64,000 nt of DNA. Source: Asticcacaulis sp. ZE23SCel15. Its GTDB lineage: Bacteria > Pseudomonadota > Alphaproteobacteria > Caulobacterales > Caulobacteraceae. The stretch is from assembly GCF_030505395.1 (NCBI RefSeq), contig NZ_CP130044.1, forward strand, positions 915,001 to 979,000. The letters run 5' to 3'. Below the pieces are notes generated by a model that made no database searches, was not told the origin of the DNA, and was given only the letters and a program-made list of their open reading frames with translations. Below are positions 12,472 to 19,155 of the stretch, one piece after another. A program made the translations under genes and the position numbers. Each line of letters starts with the position of its first letter. The stretch's first letter is position 1.

Positions 12472-12494
12472 TCAATATCCTTAAATTACTTAGG

Positions 12495-12525
12495 AAGGGC
12501 GGCATCTTAGGGTGCCGCCTTTTTT
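12495..12525 (+). terminator. intrinsic terminator of sucCD
   Basis: GGCGGCA (12498-12504) pairs with TGCCGCC (12513-12519) across an 8-nt loop and is followed by T6. Flanking A and T bases extend the stem. Confidence 0.9.
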
Positions 12526-12778
12526 GTGGGCGAAAGCCATTTTCAGACACGAATTTACGGTCACAAACCGAAATGAAAAATTTTGTCTGACAATTGATTC
12601 ACCCATTTTTGCCGGTTCTCAACGGTCAAAAAAAAGAGTATGCGTAAGTCAGTGCTGCGAATAGTCGCAGTGCGCTTCAATGCCTAGTGCTCAAGGCAGG
12701 CGGTGTCGTAATTGGCCGCCTAAACCGAAACATGAAAGGGAAGCGGTGTCGTAATTGGCCGCTTCAGCAGGTAACCTC
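12526..12778 (+). promoter_or_regulatory. sucA leader region with four successive hairpins
   Basis: No gene is seen in this 250-bp gap. Its second half can fold into CTGCGA/TCGCAG (12655-12670), TGCC/GGCA (12681-12698), and two strong hairpins at 12698-12721 and 12740-12765 that share an identical loop. The sucA start codon follows the last hairpin by 13 nt. I see no convincing promoter; the AT-rich stretch at 12560-12640 is the likeliest place. Confidence 0.5.
12698..12765 (+). repeat. twin hairpins with identical 12-nt loops before sucA
   Basis: Stem AGGCGG/CCGCCT (12698-12703, 12716-12721) and stem GAAGCGG/CCGCTTC (12740-12746, 12759-12765) both enclose the loop TGTCGTAATTGG. The exact 20-mer core recurs with a period of 43 nt. 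The stems differ by a paired change (G-C to A-T), so base pairing is kept while sequence varies. This looks like an RNA- or DNA-binding element controlling sucA. Confidence 0.75.
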
Positions 12779-15751
12779 ATGGCGGATGATTCCGGCCGTT
12801 TAAATCAGGTGTTCGCAGAAACCTCGTTTCTGTATGGCGGCAACGCCGTTTTTATCGAACAAATTCAGGAAAAATGGGCCAAAGACCCCAGTTCCGTCTC
12901 CCCCGCCTGGCGGGCTTTTTTCGATCAGTTGATGGACAGCCCATCAACCGTCGCGGATAACGCTGACGCTGGGTCATGGGCGCGCGACATTCCCGCCGTC
13001 CGTGATGAGCTGACCTCGGCCATGGACGGGTTCTGGCCCGCCGTCGAAGCCAAGGCTGCCAAGATGCCGGAAAAGACCGCCGCGGTGGTCACCGGAACCG
13101 CCGCTCCGTCACCGGAGGCTCTGCGGGCCGCATCACGCGACTCCGTGCGCGCCCTGATGCTGATCCGTGCCTACCGTATTCGCGGTCACCTGCAGTCAAA
13201 CCTCGATCCGCTCGGCATTTCGCCCAAGGGCACCAATCCTGAGCTGGAACCCTCGCACTGGGGCTTCACCGATGCTGACCTGAACCGTCCGATCTTTATC
13301 GACGGCGTTCTGGGGCTTGAAACCGCGACGCTAACCGAAATCATCACCATCCTTAAGCGCACCTATTGCTCGAACGTCGGCGTGCAGTACATGCACATCG
13401 CTGATCCGGCCGAAAAAGCCTGGATTCAGGAGCGTATCGAAGGCCGCGACAAGGAAATCACCTTCACCAAGGAAGGCAAGATCGCCATCCTCAAGAAGCT
13501 GATCGAAACCGAAGGCTTTGAGCGCTTCATCCACCGTCGTTTCCCCGGCACCAAGCGCTTCGGCCTTGACGGTGGCGAAGCCATGATCCCGGCGCTGGAG
13601 CAAATCATCAAACGCGGCGGCGCGCTTGGCATGAAGGACATCATCCTCGGTATGGCCCACCGTGGTCGTCTTAACGTGCTGGCCGGCGTGATGGGCAAGC
13701 CTTATAAGGCCGTGTTCCACGAGTTTCAGGGCGGCTCGTCCCTGCCGTCGGATATCGAAGGTTCCGGCGACGTGAAGTACCACATGGGCGCGTCATCTGA
13801 CCGTGCCTTTGACGGTAACAATGTCCACCTGTCGCTAACCGCCAACCCGTCGCACCTTGAAATCGTCAACCCGGTCGTTCTGGGTAAGGCGCGCGCCAAA
13901 CAATATTATCAAATCAAGGAAAAGAACGACGGCACGCTCGATCGCTCCGGCACCCTGCCGCTGCTGATCCACGGCGATGCCGCCTTTGCCGGTCAGGGCG
14001 TGGGCATGGAATGTTTCGCGCTGATGGGCCTTAAGGGCTATAAGACCGGCGGGACGATCCACTTCATCATCAATAACCAGATCGGGTTTACCACCTCGCC
14101 GCACAATTCGCGCTCGTCGCCGTATCCATCGGACGTAGCCTTAATGGTGGCGGCCCCGATCCTGCACGTCAATGGCGACGATCCCGAGGCCGTTGTGTTC
14201 GCGGCCAAGCTGGCGACCGAGTTCCGCCAGACCTTCGCCAAGGACGTCGTGGTCGATATGTTCTGCTATCGCCGCTTTGGCCATAACGAAGGCGATGATC
14301 CGACCTTCACCCAGCCGCTGATGTACGCCCGGATCAAGGACCATCCGTCAACGCGCGAGCTTTACTCGCAGCGCCTGATCGCTGAAGGCACCGTCTCTCA
14401 GGCTGAGGTTGATGGCTTCATCAAAGACTTCGACACCTTCCTCGATTCCGAATTTGAAGCGGGTAAGGTTTATAAGGCCTCAAAGGCCGACTGGCTGGAC
14501 GGCAAGTGGTCTGGCCTTGGCCTGCCCGAAGAAGATGAACGTCGCGGCACCACCTCGGTGCCCCGTGCCAAGCTTCTTGAAATCGGTCGCAAGATCACCG
14601 AAATCCCCAACCACGTCGATATGCACAAGACGCTGAAGCGCGTCATTGAGGCCCGTCGCGCGGCGGTCGATTCCGGTGAGAATATCGACTGGGCTTTGGC
14701 GGAGCATCTGGCCTATGGCTCGCTACTCGACGAAGGCTTCCCCGTGCGCCTGTCCGGTCAGGATTCGGTACGCGGCACCTTCTCTCAACGTCACTCGGCC
14801 TTCGTTGATCAGACCACGGAAGAACGCTACTTCCCGCTCAACAATCTGCGCGACGGTCAGGCTCAATACGAAGTCATCGACTCGGCCCTGTCCGAAGAAG
14901 CGGTGCTTGGGTTTGAATACGGCTATTCTCTGGCCGATCCGAACACACTGACCCTGTGGGAAGGCCAGTTCGGCGACTTCGTCAACGGCGCGCAAGTGGT
15001 TATTGACCAGTTCATCTCATCGGGTGAGCGCAAGTGGTTACGGATGTCAGGTCTTGTGATGTTGCTGCCGCACGGCTACGAAGGTCAGGGCCCGGAACAT
15101 TCGTCCGCGCGCCTTGAACGCTTCTTACAAGCCTGCGCCGAAGACAATATGCAGGTCGCCAACTGCACGACCCCGGCCAACTACTTTCACATCCTGCGTC
15201 GTCAGATCCACCGTCCGTTCCGCAAACCCCTGATCATCATGACGCCGAAATCTCTTTTGCGTCACAAGAAGGCGGTTTCAACTTTTGCGGATATCTCTGA
15301 GGGTTCCAGCTTCCACCGCGTCCTGCACGACGATGCCCAGACACGTCCGGAAGTGGCCGGTGTCAAACTGGTCGCCGACGACAAGATCCGCCGTGTCGTT
15401 CTGTGTTCGGGTAAGGTCTATTACGACCTGCTCGAAGACCGCGAAAAGAAGGGCATCAAGGACGTTTATCTGATGCGTCTGGAGCAGTTCTATCCGTGGC
15501 CGATGAAGTCGCTGCTGACCGAGCTTGGCCGCTTCAAGAACGCCGAACTGGTCTGGTGTCAGGAAGAACCGAAAAACATGGGCGGCTGGACGTTTGTCGA
15601 GCCGTGGCTGGAACTGACGCTCGATAAGCTCAAGGTAAAGGCCAAGCGCGCCCGTTATGTCGGTCGTCCGGCCTCGGCCTCGACCGCTGCCGGTGTCATG
15701 AGCCGCCACCTCAAAGAACTCGAAACTTTCCTTAATGAGGCGTTCGCGTAA
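12779..15751 (+). CDS. sucA: 2-oxoglutarate dehydrogenase E1 component
   Basis: 990 residues, thiamine-diphosphate-dependent decarboxylase of the 2-oxoglutarate dehydrogenase complex. The N-terminal E2-binding helix region (TSFLYGGNAVFIEQIQEKW) is intact. Core motifs include IGMAHRGRLNVL-like ILGMAHRGRLNVLAGV, the HMGASSDR region, HLSLTANPSHLEIVNPVVLGKARAKQ, and GDAAFAGQG, typical of OGDH E1. Start ATG 12779 (MADDSGR) has a weak AGGT site. An upstream TTG in the same frame lies inside the second leader hairpin and is rejected. sucB follows 60 bp later. Confidence 0.97.
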   Translation: MADDSGRLNQVFAETSFLYGGNAVFIEQIQEKWAKDPSSVSPAWRAFFDQLMDSPSTVADNADAGSWARDIPAVRDELTSAMDGFWPAVEAKAAKMPEKTAAVVTGTAAPSPEALRAASRDSVRALMLIRAYRIRGHLQSNLDPLGISPKGTNPELEPSHWGFTDADLNRPIFIDGVLGLETATLTEIITILKRTYCSNVGVQYMHIADPAEKAWIQERIEGRDKEITFTKEGKIAILKKLIETEGFERFIHRRFPGTKRFGLDGGEAMIPALEQIIKRGGALGMKDIILGMAHRGRLNVLAGVMGKPYKAVFHEFQGGSSLPSDIEGSGDVKYHMGASSDRAFDGNNVHLSLTANPSHLEIVNPVVLGKARAKQYYQIKEKNDGTLDRSGTLPLLIHGDAAFAGQGVGMECFALMGLKGYKTGGTIHFIINNQIGFTTSPHNSRSSPYPSDVALMVAAPILHVNGDDPEAVVFAAKLATEFRQTFAKDVVVDMFCYRRFGHNEGDDPTFTQPLMYARIKDHPSTRELYSQRLIAEGTVSQAEVDGFIKDFDTFLDSEFEAGKVYKASKADWLDGKWSGLGLPEEDERRGTTSVPRAKLLEIGRKITEIPNHVDMHKTLKRVIEARRAAVDSGENIDWALAEHLAYGSLLDEGFPVRLSGQDSVRGTFSQRHSAFVDQTTEERYFPLNNLRDGQAQYEVIDSALSEEAVLGFEYGYSLADPNTLTLWEGQFGDFVNGAQVVIDQFISSGERKWLRMSGLVMLLPHGYEGQGPEHSSARLERFLQACAEDNMQVANCTTPANYFHILRRQIHRPFRKPLIIMTPKSLLRHKKAVSTFADISEGSSFHRVLHDDAQTRPEVAGVKLVADDKIRRVVLCSGKVYYDLLEDREKKGIKDVYLMRLEQFYPWPMKSLLTELGRFKNAELVWCQEEPKNMGGWTFVEPWLELTLDKLKVKAKRARYVGRPASASTAAGVMSRHLKELETFLNEAFA

Positions 15752-15811: not shown

Positions 15812-17329
15812 ATGGCTGATATCTTAACCCCCGTTCTTGGCGAATCTGTTGCCGAAGCCACCATCGCCCGCTGGACCAAAAAGCCCGGCGATGCCGTCAA
15901 AAAGGACGAAGTCCTGGTCGAGCTGGAAACCGATAAGGTCTCCCTCGAAGTCGCCGCCCCCGCTGACGGCACCCTGTCTGAAATTCTGGTCGGCGAAGGC
16001 GACACCGTCGTCCCCGGCACCATCCTTGGTCGCATCGGTGCGGCCGGTGCCGCCGCGGCTCCGGCCCCCATGGCAGCCCCTGCTGCCACACCTGCGCCTG
16101 CCGCAGCACCGGCTTCGGGCAATCTGGTCGAAGTCAAAACCCCGGTTATGGGTGAATCCGTCGCCGAAGGCGCTATCGGCACCTGGTTGAAAAAAGCCGG
16201 TGACGCCGTCAAAAAAGACGAGGTTCTGGTCGAAATCGAAACCGATAAGGTTGCCGTCGAAGTTGCCTCACCGGCTGATGGCGTGCTGGCTGAAATCGTG
16301 GCTGCTGACGGTGCTACCGTCACGCCGGGTCAGGTCATCGCTAAAATCGCCGCCGGGGCTTCTGCCGGTTCGACTCAAGCGGCGCCCGCACCTGCTGCCG
16401 CTCCGGCCCCAGTCGCGGCTGCGGCTGCCCCCGCCGCGTCTCAGCATCTGTCCCCGTCGGTGCAGCGCATCACGACCGAAAACAACCTCGACACCTCCGC
16501 CATTGCCGGCACCGGCAAAGACGGTCGCATCACCAAGGGCGACGCGCTCGCGGCCCTGTCATCGCCCGCGCCGACACCGGTCGCCTTGGCCCCAACGCCT
16601 TCGGCCCCGGCAGCCCCGCGTCCGGCCGCCGCCCGCGAAGAGCGCGTAAAGATGACACGCCTGCGTCAAACCATCGCCCGCCGCCTGAAAGAGTCGCAAT
16701 CGACTGCCGCTCAGTTGACCACCTTCAACGAAGTCGACATGTCGACGGTCATGAACCTGCGCAACACCTATAAGGATGCCTTTGAAAAGCGTCATGGCGT
16801 CAAACTCGGCTTCATGTCGTTCTTCGCCAAGGCTGTGGTTGCGGCCCTGAAAGACATTCCGGCGGTTAACGCTGAAATCGACGGCACCGACATCATCTAC
16901 AAGAACCACTACGATCTCGGCGTTGCCGTCGGCACCGATAAGGGTCTGGTCGTGCCGGTCCTGCGCGATGTCGACCAACTGTCGCTGGCCGGTATCGAAA
17001 AGGGTATTGCGGGTCTGGGTAAGCAAGCCCGCGACGGCACCCTGTCGCTGGATCAGCTTCAGGGTGGGACGTTTACCATCACCAACGGCGGCATCTACGG
17101 TTCGCTGATGTCGACGCCGATCCTCAACATGCCGCAGGTCGGTATCTTAGGGATGCACAACATCGTCCAGCGTCCGATGGTCGTGAACGGTCAGATTGTT
17201 GCCCGTCCGATGATGTATCTGGCCCTGTCCTACGATCACCGTATCGTCGACGGCAAGGAAGCCGTGACCTTCCTCGTGCGCATCAAGGAAGGCCTCGAAG
17301 ACCCGCAGCGCTTTATCCTCGACGTCTAA
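15812..17329 (+). CDS. sucB: dihydrolipoyllysine succinyltransferase (E2o) with two lipoyl domains
   Basis: 505 residues, about 100 longer than the usual one-lipoyl E2o. Domain order: lipoyl 1 (about 2-75, ETDKVSLEV), Ala/Pro linker, lipoyl 2 (about 107-182, ETDKVAVEV), linker, E1/E3-binding domain (about 211-250, [14 protein letters not shown]), and the catalytic acyltransferase domain (about 275-505) ending with the active-site SYDHRIVDG. Both lipoyl-accepting lysines are present. The catalytic half is closest to succinyltransferases ([22 protein letters not shown]). It forms the core of the complex with SucA and Lpd. Confidence 0.95.
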
Positions 17330-17348: not shown

Positions 17349-17380
17349 AAAAGGCCGCTCCTCATGGGGCGGCCTTTTTT
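17349..17380 (+). terminator. intrinsic terminator after sucB
   Basis: AAGGCCGC (17351-17358) pairs with GCGGCCTT (17369-17376), followed by T6. It separates sucAB from the paralogous pair downstream. Confidence 0.9.
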
Positions 17381-17395
17381 GTGGCATTTCGGCCC

Positions 17396-17409
17396 TGTTA
17401 GCGCTATCG
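17396..17409. promoter_or_regulatory. operator-like TGTTAGCGCT motif
   Basis: TGTTAGCGCTATCG contains the same 10-mer as 10074 and 36226. It lies 36 bp before the secreted-protein gene. Only the left and central parts match a symmetric LacI-type site. Confidence 0.3.
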
Positions 17410-17444
17410 TCCAACCAACAATAAGATACGGGACGGGGAAACAC

Positions 17445-18299
17445 ATGGGGAGACCACACGGGGTCGGGCTGGCGCTTATGTGCGCCGCAGCTTTAACATT
17501 TTCAGGCACAGCTGACGCGGCACCCAAGAGCCCGCGCCTGCAAACCTATGGCAAGTTTACGCCGGGCGCGGCCAAAAAGGCACAGACCTATGTGACCACG
17601 GCCATGACCGTACCGATGACAGATCTGTTGTCTCAGGCATCCCAACTCAAGGCCGAAGCCATGCTGACCTATGGCCTGGGGCTGGAACTGGGCCGCGCAC
17701 CGGCGACCCGCGAAATGTCGCCCAATGAACGCGCCCGCGTACAGGCGGTGTTCAAGGAAATGCTGATCCTCTATGTCCGTGCCAAGGACGATATAAACCT
17801 TACGGGCAGTGAGACCATACTGCTCGATCAGCCAGACTTCTGGATTTTGATGGCACGCTCGTTAAGCTTTAGGGAACGCACGCCTTCGCTTTATCTCGAC
17901 AACCCCGATGGTTCCGGCACGGTCATAACCACCGACGCCAACATCATTACCGCCAGCGATGGCAAACAATATAGCCTCGTCGGTCAGCCGCTTCTGGATG
18001 CCAGCCGGGTGTCGGCAGCGCAATCGTGCGTCATCTATGCCCGTGCCGAAGCCCGGATGCAAAAGGTACAGACCTTGGATGCGTCTGCCGCCCCGCATTT
18101 GTCGACGGAAAAACTCAGCGAATATAAACAGTCGGCCAAAGCCCTTGGCGCAAATGCGCGCCGCTTTGGCACGGATGCCTGCGGAAACAGTAACTATTAC
18201 AAAGCCGTACGCGCCTATGCCTCACTCAATCTGGGTAAGCTGGGCCTGCTCACAGACGATCCCTCAGCCTTGGTCGACCTCATACCGGACAGCGAATAG
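17445..18299 (+). CDS. secreted hypothetical protein, paralogue 1
   Basis: 284 residues with a signal peptide (about 1-25, VGLALMCAAALTFSGTADA then APK). The mature part is mostly alpha-helical. It shares length and motifs with the next gene: TYVTTAMTVPMTDLL, a TYGLGLELGRAPA motif, RVQAVFKEMLILYV, DQPDFWILMAR, AAQSCVIYA and FGTDACGNSNYYKAV. Two conserved Cys suggest a disulfide in the periplasm. No known family is recognised. The ATG at 17445 follows a GGGGA site and gives the signal peptide; an upstream in-frame ATG lies in the terminator. Confidence 0.82.
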   Translation: MGRPHGVGLALMCAAALTFSGTADAAPKSPRLQTYGKFTPGAAKKAQTYVTTAMTVPMTDLLSQASQLKAEAMLTYGLGLELGRAPATREMSPNERARVQAVFKEMLILYVRAKDDINLTGSETILLDQPDFWILMARSLSFRERTPSLYLDNPDGSGTVITTDANIITASDGKQYSLVGQPLLDASRVSAAQSCVIYARAEARMQKVQTLDASAAPHLSTEKLSEYKQSAKALGANARRFGTDACGNSNYYKAVRAYASLNLGKLGLLTDDPSALVDLIPDSE

Positions 18300-18303
18300 C
18301 GCC

Positions 18304-19155
18304 ATGAAATTATTCAGCACACTGATAATACTGACCTGCCTGTGGACTCCCATGGCAGAAGCCGCCACCAAATCCAAAGGTGGCCAGTATAACACGGTGG
18401 CCTCGCGCCGCGCCCAGCCGCATCTGGACCTGGCCATGACCGCACCCATGCCGCAACTGCTCGACCAGGCGGCTGAGCTTAAGCCGGAATATGTTCTGGC
18501 CTATGGTCTGGCCCTCGAATTGGGTCGCGAACCCGCCCCGCTTAGCCCCACCCAGCGGGCCAAGGTGCAGGGCGTGTTTCAGGATTTCCTCAATGAATTC
18601 GTCTACAAAAAAGACAATATCGCGCTGAAAGGCGACGAAGATATCTTACTTAGCCAGCCTGATTTCTGGATCATGATGGCGCGTGTCTTTGGCAGAAAAC
18701 CGCAACATATGCGGCTGATGGGCGGCACAACCCTGATCAGCGATACGACCGGCGCTGTCTCAACGCTCAATTTCGGCGCCTATGATCTCAACGATAACAC
18801 CTTCCGTCCCGAAGACTATCGTTTCAGCGAAGAGACCGTGCTGAACCGTTATATGGTCTACGCAGCGCAGTCCTGCGCCATGTATGCCAAAATCTCTGAG
18901 CAAATGAAAAAGGCCCAAAGGGTAGATGCCGCCTCGATCTCACACCTGACGCCGGAAAAACTGGCTGAGGTCAAGGCCACCGCCCGGACTATCCATGCCG
19001 AGGCTCTGCGCTATGGCCCTGCGGCGTGCGGCGGGCGCGACTATTTCAATAAGGTCTCAGCCTTTGCCGCCGCCAATCTGGGGCGGCTGAACACGCTGAA
19101 AGACGATCCAATCGCTCAGATCACCCCGGTCGCGACAGACAGCCCGATCCCTTAA
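18304..19155 (+). CDS. secreted hypothetical protein, paralogue 2
   Basis: 283 residues, signal peptide about 1-19 (LIILTCLWTPMAEA). Clearly homologous over the full length to the preceding gene: LDLAMTAPMPQLLDQ, AYGLALELGREPAPL, KVQGVFQDFLNEFV, SQPDFWIMMARVF, AAQSCAMYAKI, YGPAACGGRDYFNKV. The ATG is 4 nt after the previous stop, so the two are translationally coupled and arose by tandem duplication. The function is unknown. A longer open frame upstream of 18304 only shadows the preceding gene. Confidence 0.85.
   Translation: MKLFSTLIILTCLWTPMAEAATKSKGGQYNTVASRRAQPHLDLAMTAPMPQLLDQAAELKPEYVLAYGLALELGREPAPLSPTQRAKVQGVFQDFLNEFVYKKDNIALKGDEDILLSQPDFWIMMARVFGRKPQHMRLMGGTTLISDTTGAVSTLNFGAYDLNDNTFRPEDYRFSEETVLNRYMVYAAQSCAMYAKISEQMKKAQRVDAASISHLTPEKLAEVKATARTIHAEALRYGPAACGGRDYFNKVSAFAAANLGRLNTLKDDPIAQITPVATDSPIP

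Follow-up and report, generated by a model that had tools for sequence, protein, structure and literature searches.

What does the leader of sucA in Asticcacaulis sp. ZE23SCel15 do with two hairpins that differ in their stems and carry the same 12-nt loop? The pair was described in an earlier note on a 64,000-nt stretch of DNA (the window), which is part of a 3.77 Mb single-contig genome. The note placed the two hairpins (HP1 and HP2, Table 1), reported the identical loops with starts 43 nt apart and the 13 nt between the end of HP2 and the sucA ATG at 12779, and proposed that an RNA element is read there by a partner. These coordinates and distances are all correct. We have followed the element through the genus and beyond.

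The sucA locus

The open frames of the locus run in the order sucC, sucD, sucA, sucB, two unnamed frames with a smaller one, and lpd, the names being those of the protein families to which we presume the products to belong. In a protein search, the SucA of the window was 97% identical to that of Asticcacaulis machinosus (locus L067). The two adjoining open frames between sucB and lpd (17364-19155) look alike by eye, and each seems to hold a signal-like stretch near its N terminus.

A strong terminator hairpin, absent from the list of our consensus scan, follows sucD and very probably separates the transcription of sucCD from that of sucA, which therefore very probably has a promoter of its own. 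Transcription from the putative -10 box AGTATG would start near 12650, as we infer. A consensus scan of the window leader returned no sigma-70 promoter. Words resembling a -10 box lie upstream of HP1 in 17 of the 25 genus leaders, a count made without a chance control, and in ten of the leaders they stand 20-24 nt 5' of the HP1 loop. Judging by these letters, the sucA promoter is likely to lie upstream of HP1, so a transcription start past 12765, which the earlier note took to be fatal to its proposal, is not what the leader suggests.

Table 1. Features of the sucA leader and its surroundings in the window.
Feature	Position	Strand	Details
Intrinsic terminator 3' of sucD	12492..12525	+	15-bp stem, -23.5 kcal/mol, z -6.6; 3' arm closes with a T run
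Putative -10 box of the sucA promoter	12637..12642	+	AGTATG, a -10-like word
HP1	12698..12721	+	AGGCGG / TGTCGTAATTGG / CCGCCT; loop 12704-12715
GAAAGG, distal Shine-Dalgarno candidate	12734..12739	+	Invariant in 25/25 leaders; abuts HP2
HP2	12740..12765	+	GAAGCGG / TGTCGTAATTGG / CCGCTTC; loop 12747-12758
AGGT, weak proximal Shine-Dalgarno candidate	12769..12772	+	6 nt before the ATG
sucA, presumably 2-oxoglutarate dehydrogenase E1	12779..15751	+	Name presumed from the protein family; sucB next at 15812

Two hairpins with one loop

Folded alone, HP1 and HP2 have predicted energies of -11.1 kcal/mol (z = -2.6) and -11.6 kcal/mol (z = -3.5), respectively. The folding program pairs the first U of the loop with its last G, and the open loop may therefore be of 10 nt. 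Both hairpins are part of the minimum-energy structure of the 176-nt leader, whose overall stability is unremarkable (z = -1.3). In the longer leaders of the genus, cut at arbitrary ends, the mean pair probability falls below 0.5 for HP2 in 8 of 25 cases and for HP1 likewise in 8 of 25. Twin hairpins, defined by stems of at least 6 pairs, identical 12-nt loops and less than 200 nt between the loops, occur once in the real window and in none of 30 windows resampled with a first-order Markov model. In the own genome, the exact 12-mer of the loop is found at these two places only.

Conservation within Asticcacaulis

A protein search placed sucA in all 25 genomes of the genus set, whose SucA N-terminal sequences go down to 74-76% identity with that of the window. 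Each of these genomes has at least two copies of the loop motif before sucA, three in one genome and two in each of the rest, giving 51 copies in total. This recurrence of the pair in 25 of 25 genomes is the strongest argument against chance, and it bears out the position in the sucA leader that the earlier note had assigned to the element. The named public Asticcacaulis records (L067, L068, L118) show the element too. The earlier note had made its case depend on conservation in related leaders, and the Asticcacaulis relatives do keep the element.

The consensus of the 51 loops is UGUCGUNRUUGG, with positions 1-6 and 9-12 invariant, all four bases at position 7 and A or G at position 8. The copies were chosen by a pattern that fixes these ten invariant positions, so that diverged extra copies may escape, although no genome lacked the pattern. 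A covariance model returned the same 51 copies before sucA and added none.

The conservation is local. Ungapped identity across the genomes is 0.90 for GAAAGG together with HP2, as compared to 0.31 and 0.39 for two neighbouring stretches, and the ungapped pairwise identity of the 30 bases 5' of HP1 is 0.31. The HP2 loop starts at -30 to -33 from the ATG in all 25 leaders, and this near-constant distance ties HP2 to initiation. The offset between the HP1 and HP2 loops ranges from 42 to 109 nt across the genus. A wandering HP1, along with the third copy in one genome, suggests repeated sites for one partner and not one rigid fold.

A leader peptide was also considered, with the loop read as codons TGT CGT NRT TGG. 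It was rejected on two grounds, as the bases that vary would be the first and second of a codon, and the loop offset, 43 nt here, is indivisible by three in most of the genomes.

Stem covariation

We aligned 27 of the 29 distinct 26-nt hairpins, trimmed, and used the same rows to build the covariance model; the two omitted were a near-duplicate and the HP1 of L161, which forms its stem only with a bulge. Changes on both sides occur at 6 of the 7 pairs. In this alignment 91.5% of the cells pair compared with 69.1% in shuffles, a percentage lifted slightly by the omission of the L161 HP1. The covariation score was 0.643 compared with 0.212 in shuffles, none of 500 being as high, and 44 cells carry a change on both sides compared with 10.3 in shuffles, where again none of 500 reached 44. 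The counts of pairs and of pair types gave weaker yet still rare values (5 and 2 of 500 shuffles). When the partner column was slid by one to three columns, the score fell from 0.643 to 0.233 or less. With all 31 distinct 28-nt forms included, 140 of 186 cells pair at pairs 3-8, whereas 2000 shuffles had a mean of 102 and a highest value of 122.

Parsimony on a sucA tree places the changes in both hairpins. In HP1 it counts 5 changes at pair 3, 4 at pair 4 and 7 at pair 5, two of the 75 cells being unpaired; in HP2 it counts 4 changes at pair 4, 1 at pair 5 and 2 at pair 7, with no cell broken. Three tree-neighbour genomes, for example, have the HP1 stems ACCAGGG/CCCTGGT, ACCAGAG/CTCTGGT and ACCAAGG/CCTTGGT. 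Taken alone, HP2 varies at only 3 of its 7 pairs. In HP1, pair 6 is open in 7 of the 25 genomes and pair 7 in 18, which makes HP1 a shorter hairpin. Genus alignment, shuffles and tree together uphold the idea of a conserved loop on covarying stems with which the earlier note began, and the leader combines compensatory stem changes with conserved unpaired positions, as a structured cis-regulatory RNA does. A conserved alternative pairing between the arms of HP1 and HP2 is conceivable in the window, but it fails by eye with the HP1 stem ACCAGGG/CCCTGGT and was dismissed as not general.

A candidate ribosome-binding site beside HP2

In all 25 leaders the hexamer GAAAGG immediately precedes the HP2 stem, and the 17 bases upstream of it vary. 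This invariant hexamer, which HP2 sets apart from the start codon, does not feature in the earlier note. Its complement, CCUUUC, is part of the 16S tail, which was read directly in 2 of the 25 genomes, the source genome not being among them. The predicted pairing of GAAAGG with the tail amounts to -7.2 to -9.4 kcal/mol, compared with -2.5 to -6.3 kcal/mol for the stretch between HP2 and the ATG. With GAAAGG on its 5' side and the ATG on its 3' side, HP2 therefore stands between a strong distal Shine-Dalgarno candidate and the start codon.

HP2 ends 11-14 nt before the ATG in all 25 leaders. The gap between GAAAGG and the ATG is accordingly 11-14 nt with the 26-nt hairpin folded and 37-40 nt with it unfolded. 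At 45 other sucA loci (L069-L113), a word resembling a Shine-Dalgarno sequence was found 7-16 nt before the ATG in 30 cases and 3 or 23 nt before it in 2 cases, and 13 loci showed none; a distance of 11-14 nt is thus within the usual range. The arrangement has the layout, and the layout only, of a split initiation region of the kind described for T4 genes 25 and 38. However, all 25 leaders also have a weak proximal GG at -8 to -10, a usual distance, and the ribosome may therefore not work from the distal site.

One half of the HP2 loop, UGUCGU (12747-12752), could pair with AUGGCG (12779-12784), which is AUGGCR genus-wide, the second sucA codon being GCG or GCA in 25 of 25 genomes. The pairing is weak and rich in wobbles, and by our own reckoning such a match would arise by chance about one time in ten.

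Distribution beyond sucA and the genus

A covariance search of the genus genomes, in which 150 candidates were scored per genome, returned 106 matches at E <= 1, namely the 51 sucA copies and 55 elsewhere. The latter score 28.3 bits or less, and an open frame of 150 codons or longer runs across 53 of them on one or the other strand; the other two (L251, L252) lie in open frames of 90 and 110 codons. An open frame is no proof of a gene, and a weak further site is therefore possible. The lowest-scoring sucA copy, the distal HP1 of G109, reaches 26.0 bits and falls below the best coding match at 28.3 bits, so that score alone separates the two groups imperfectly.

To look beyond the genus, we scanned the 77 of 80 sucA loci that have leaders (L119, L127 and L137 have none), and only the three Asticcacaulis loci (L067, L068, L118) matched. 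Six of the 12 matches up to E = 5 are Asticcacaulis copies, and the best of the others (21.5 bits, E = 0.063; L125) is on the opposite strand. Among 299 genomes of the order, where 25 candidates were scored per genome under stricter filters that can lose weak matches, the element was found in both sampled Asticcacaulis genomes, while 12 other genomes gave a single weak match each (L203-L214), all within or opposite open frames of 90 codons or more. The check across Caulobacterales that the earlier note had called for was therefore positive for the leaders of Asticcacaulis and negative for the sucA leaders scanned in other genera.

A tandem pattern of exact loop words with a gap of 18-48, which would miss widely spaced copies, was found among 385 genomes of the class in the own genome and in one coding-like repeat (G711, L217), and it had no exact match in viral contigs. 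A loop scan allowing one mismatch matched 69 of 99 genomes of the family, and such words occurred in the reversed control as well. An exact 14-mer in G012 (L223) likewise lies in or opposite an open frame. Among the genomes searched, the element is, on this evidence from sequence, restricted to sucA and to Asticcacaulis.

Other genera seem to have sucA leader structures of their own. By eye, several Brevundimonas leaders (L071-L078 and others, last 150 nt) share, 3' of a TATAT box, a different inverted repeat similar to CGCGCAGGCGTGCGCG, and yet another one is found in several leaders of Caulobacter.

The earlier note knew of no described element of this form, and no Rfam family matched at its gathering score. 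With the threshold relaxed to E <= 10 (12480-12840), 11 weak matches appeared, all below gathering and none to a sucA or guanidine family; ten lie in or upstream of the terminator-promoter part, and the remaining one (bxd_5, E = 6, 12720-12740) touches the interval between HP1 and HP2. A search of titles and abstract starts in the open-licence PMC literature, with subscription literature outside its scope, returned no description of such an element.

Comparison with known systems

The sucA-II and sucC motifs, two further described families, were compared through the Rfam scans. The loops of guanidine-II (mini-ykkC) RNAs are ACGR and unrelated to the loop described here. The Asticcacaulis loops are longer, with 10-12 nt and the sequence UGUCGUNRUUGG, their spacing is variable, and they gave no Rfam match to that family. 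The targets of ANTAR proteins are dual hairpins with short loops. They resemble the present pair in being RNA hairpins with conserved loops, which in the ANTAR case are read by a protein, according to excerpts of PMC3369931. ANTAR proteins act by antitermination (PMC3369931, in the same excerpts), whereas the Asticcacaulis site overlaps the ribosome site, and a consensus scan found no terminator between HP2 and the ATG.

The closest case by position is the sucA RNA motif (RF01070) of Betaproteobacteria, a conserved structured sucA leader and riboswitch candidate for which the excerpted text of PMC7011215 gives no known ligand. The Asticcacaulis element also lies in the sucA 5' leader. It differs in belonging to another bacterial class, in being made up of two or three hairpins that stand apart and share one loop sequence, and in having no match to the RF01070 model at the gathering score or at E <= 10. 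By the tests made, RF01070 is an analogue and not a relative.

For T4 genes 25 and 38, a structure between the Shine-Dalgarno sequence and the AUG has been shown experimentally to shorten the gap, from 27 to 11 and from 22 to 5 nt, as stated in excerpts of PMC3014915. HP2 would similarly cut 37-40 nt to 11-14 nt. In contrast to a plain spacer, which needs neither, the Asticcacaulis hairpin has an invariant loop and a second copy upstream.

Discussion

The reading that we prefer, and to which we give an even chance, is that the sucA leader contains a cis-regulatory RNA element, peculiar to Asticcacaulis within the range of our searches, by which the initiation of translation is controlled, with the loops read by a trans-acting partner, most likely a protein. 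Folding of HP2 would bring GAAAGG from 37-40 to 11-14 nt from the ATG and so make the distal site usable by the ribosome. The loops of HP1 and HP2 would be docking sites for one partner, most likely a dedicated RNA-binding protein. Once on HP2, the partner would obstruct or reshape the ribosome site, and the HP1 copy would serve to increase its local concentration or cooperativity. What the letters show is the two hairpins, their constant loop, the covarying stems, the GAAAGG and, in the genomes searched, an occurrence limited to sucA and Asticcacaulis; we infer the transcription start, the use of the distal site, the partner, the signal and the direction of control. A constant distance from HP2 to the ATG combined with a variable HP1 offset is what would be expected of an initiation-tied site and a movable second binding site. 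In our judgement, invariant loops on stems that are free to vary fit a protein best, then a ligand, then a small RNA.

Several observations count against this preferred reading. A weak proximal GG is at a usual distance in 25 of 25 leaders, pair probabilities below 0.5 are seen in the longer leaders for HP2 and HP1 alike (8 of 25 each), only 3 of the 7 HP2 pairs vary, and HP1 lacks pair 6 in 7 and pair 7 in 18 of 25 genomes. The HP1 of G109 (26.0 bits) scores under the best coding match (28.3 bits), and a target of one gene in one genus would be unusual for a general RNA-binding protein. In a bolder proposal, which we consider unlikely, the two hairpins would sense a TCA-cycle or cofactor signal and so flip a split ribosome-binding site between states. 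The loops would take a ligand or partner that locks HP2 as a bridge, or a block, between the Shine-Dalgarno sequence and the AUG, and the state of HP2 would set the flow of 2-oxoglutarate into the second half of the cycle. To our knowledge, no gated split initiation region of this sort has been reported.

The other explanations differ in what they make of the loops. We find it rather improbable that the pair is a metabolite-sensing riboswitch of two small hairpins in the manner of guanidine-II, with a ligand that stabilizes the loops, perhaps through a loop-loop contact, and sets access to the ribosome site. Two similar hairpins with invariant loops do recall the guanidine-II layout (excerpts of PMC5486947), and sucA leaders of Betaproteobacteria hold another riboswitch candidate without a known ligand (excerpts of PMC7011215), but an offset of 42 to 109 nt and three copies in one genome do not suit a fixed two-hairpin fold, the occurrence is limited to one gene in one genus among the genomes searched, and in our own reading the loop has no evident self-complementary core. 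Doing without a trans-acting partner altogether is also improbable in our estimate. HP2 would then serve a split initiation region as a structural spacer only, and HP1 would shield the 5' end of the message, as is consistent with the invariant GAAAGG that abuts HP2, with the T4 precedent (excerpts of PMC3014915) and with the -10-like words that precede the HP1 loop by 20-24 nt in ten leaders and would there put HP1 near the 5' end. However, a stem suffices for a spacer or an end cap, and ten invariant loop bases in all copies would be needless.

That the loops are landing sites of a base-pairing small RNA seems to us improbable as well. The variable loop positions spell U-N-R, the pattern of a U-turn that would present the next bases, and antisense recognition loops have YUNR (excerpts of PMC6562991); in all copies, however, a G and no pyrimidine precedes that U, giving GUNR, and the N or the R differs in many cases between the two loops of a genome. 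A search of the own genome for the loop complement itself, CCAANNACGACA, gave 9 places besides the element, which also speak against such a partner, as 7 are in open frames of more than 150 codons, one is in a 96-aa frame and one precedes a gene that we take to be clpX. Tandem operators of a transcription factor, finally, are very improbable. Two direct repeats downstream of a likely promoter would suit them, yet the stems covary as RNA pairs do, and the loop of the last copy starts at -30 to -33 in 25 of 25 leaders, a near-constant spacing to the ATG that ties this copy to translation and not to the promoter.

Two further resemblances concern the loop sequence. A loop-like word with one mismatch, TGTCGTACTTGG, lies before the presumed clpX in the own genome (L011, about 1501-1512); it has C at the purine position and no match in the covariance search, and is therefore probably due to chance. 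The word UGUCGUCA of the HP1 and HP2 loops recurs in the universal 16S rRNA stretch GCUGUCGUCAGC, and from this likeness in sequence it is conceivable that the loops mimic the site of a ribosomal protein.

The analysis points to a sucA leader element that is combined with a split initiation region and is, as far as searched, so far undescribed. Its gene encodes part of 2-oxoglutarate dehydrogenase, the branch at which carbon stays in the cycle or leaves for glutamate, and an unrelated structured RNA precedes sucA in another group of bacteria, with no ligand known according to the excerpts of PMC7011215. Because the element is small, repeated in the leader and physically tied to the ribosome site, its partner could be caught with a 26-nt bait. 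If the preferred reading is true, the split initiation region, known from T4 phages (excerpts of PMC3014915), would be extended to a cellular gene that is possibly regulated through it.
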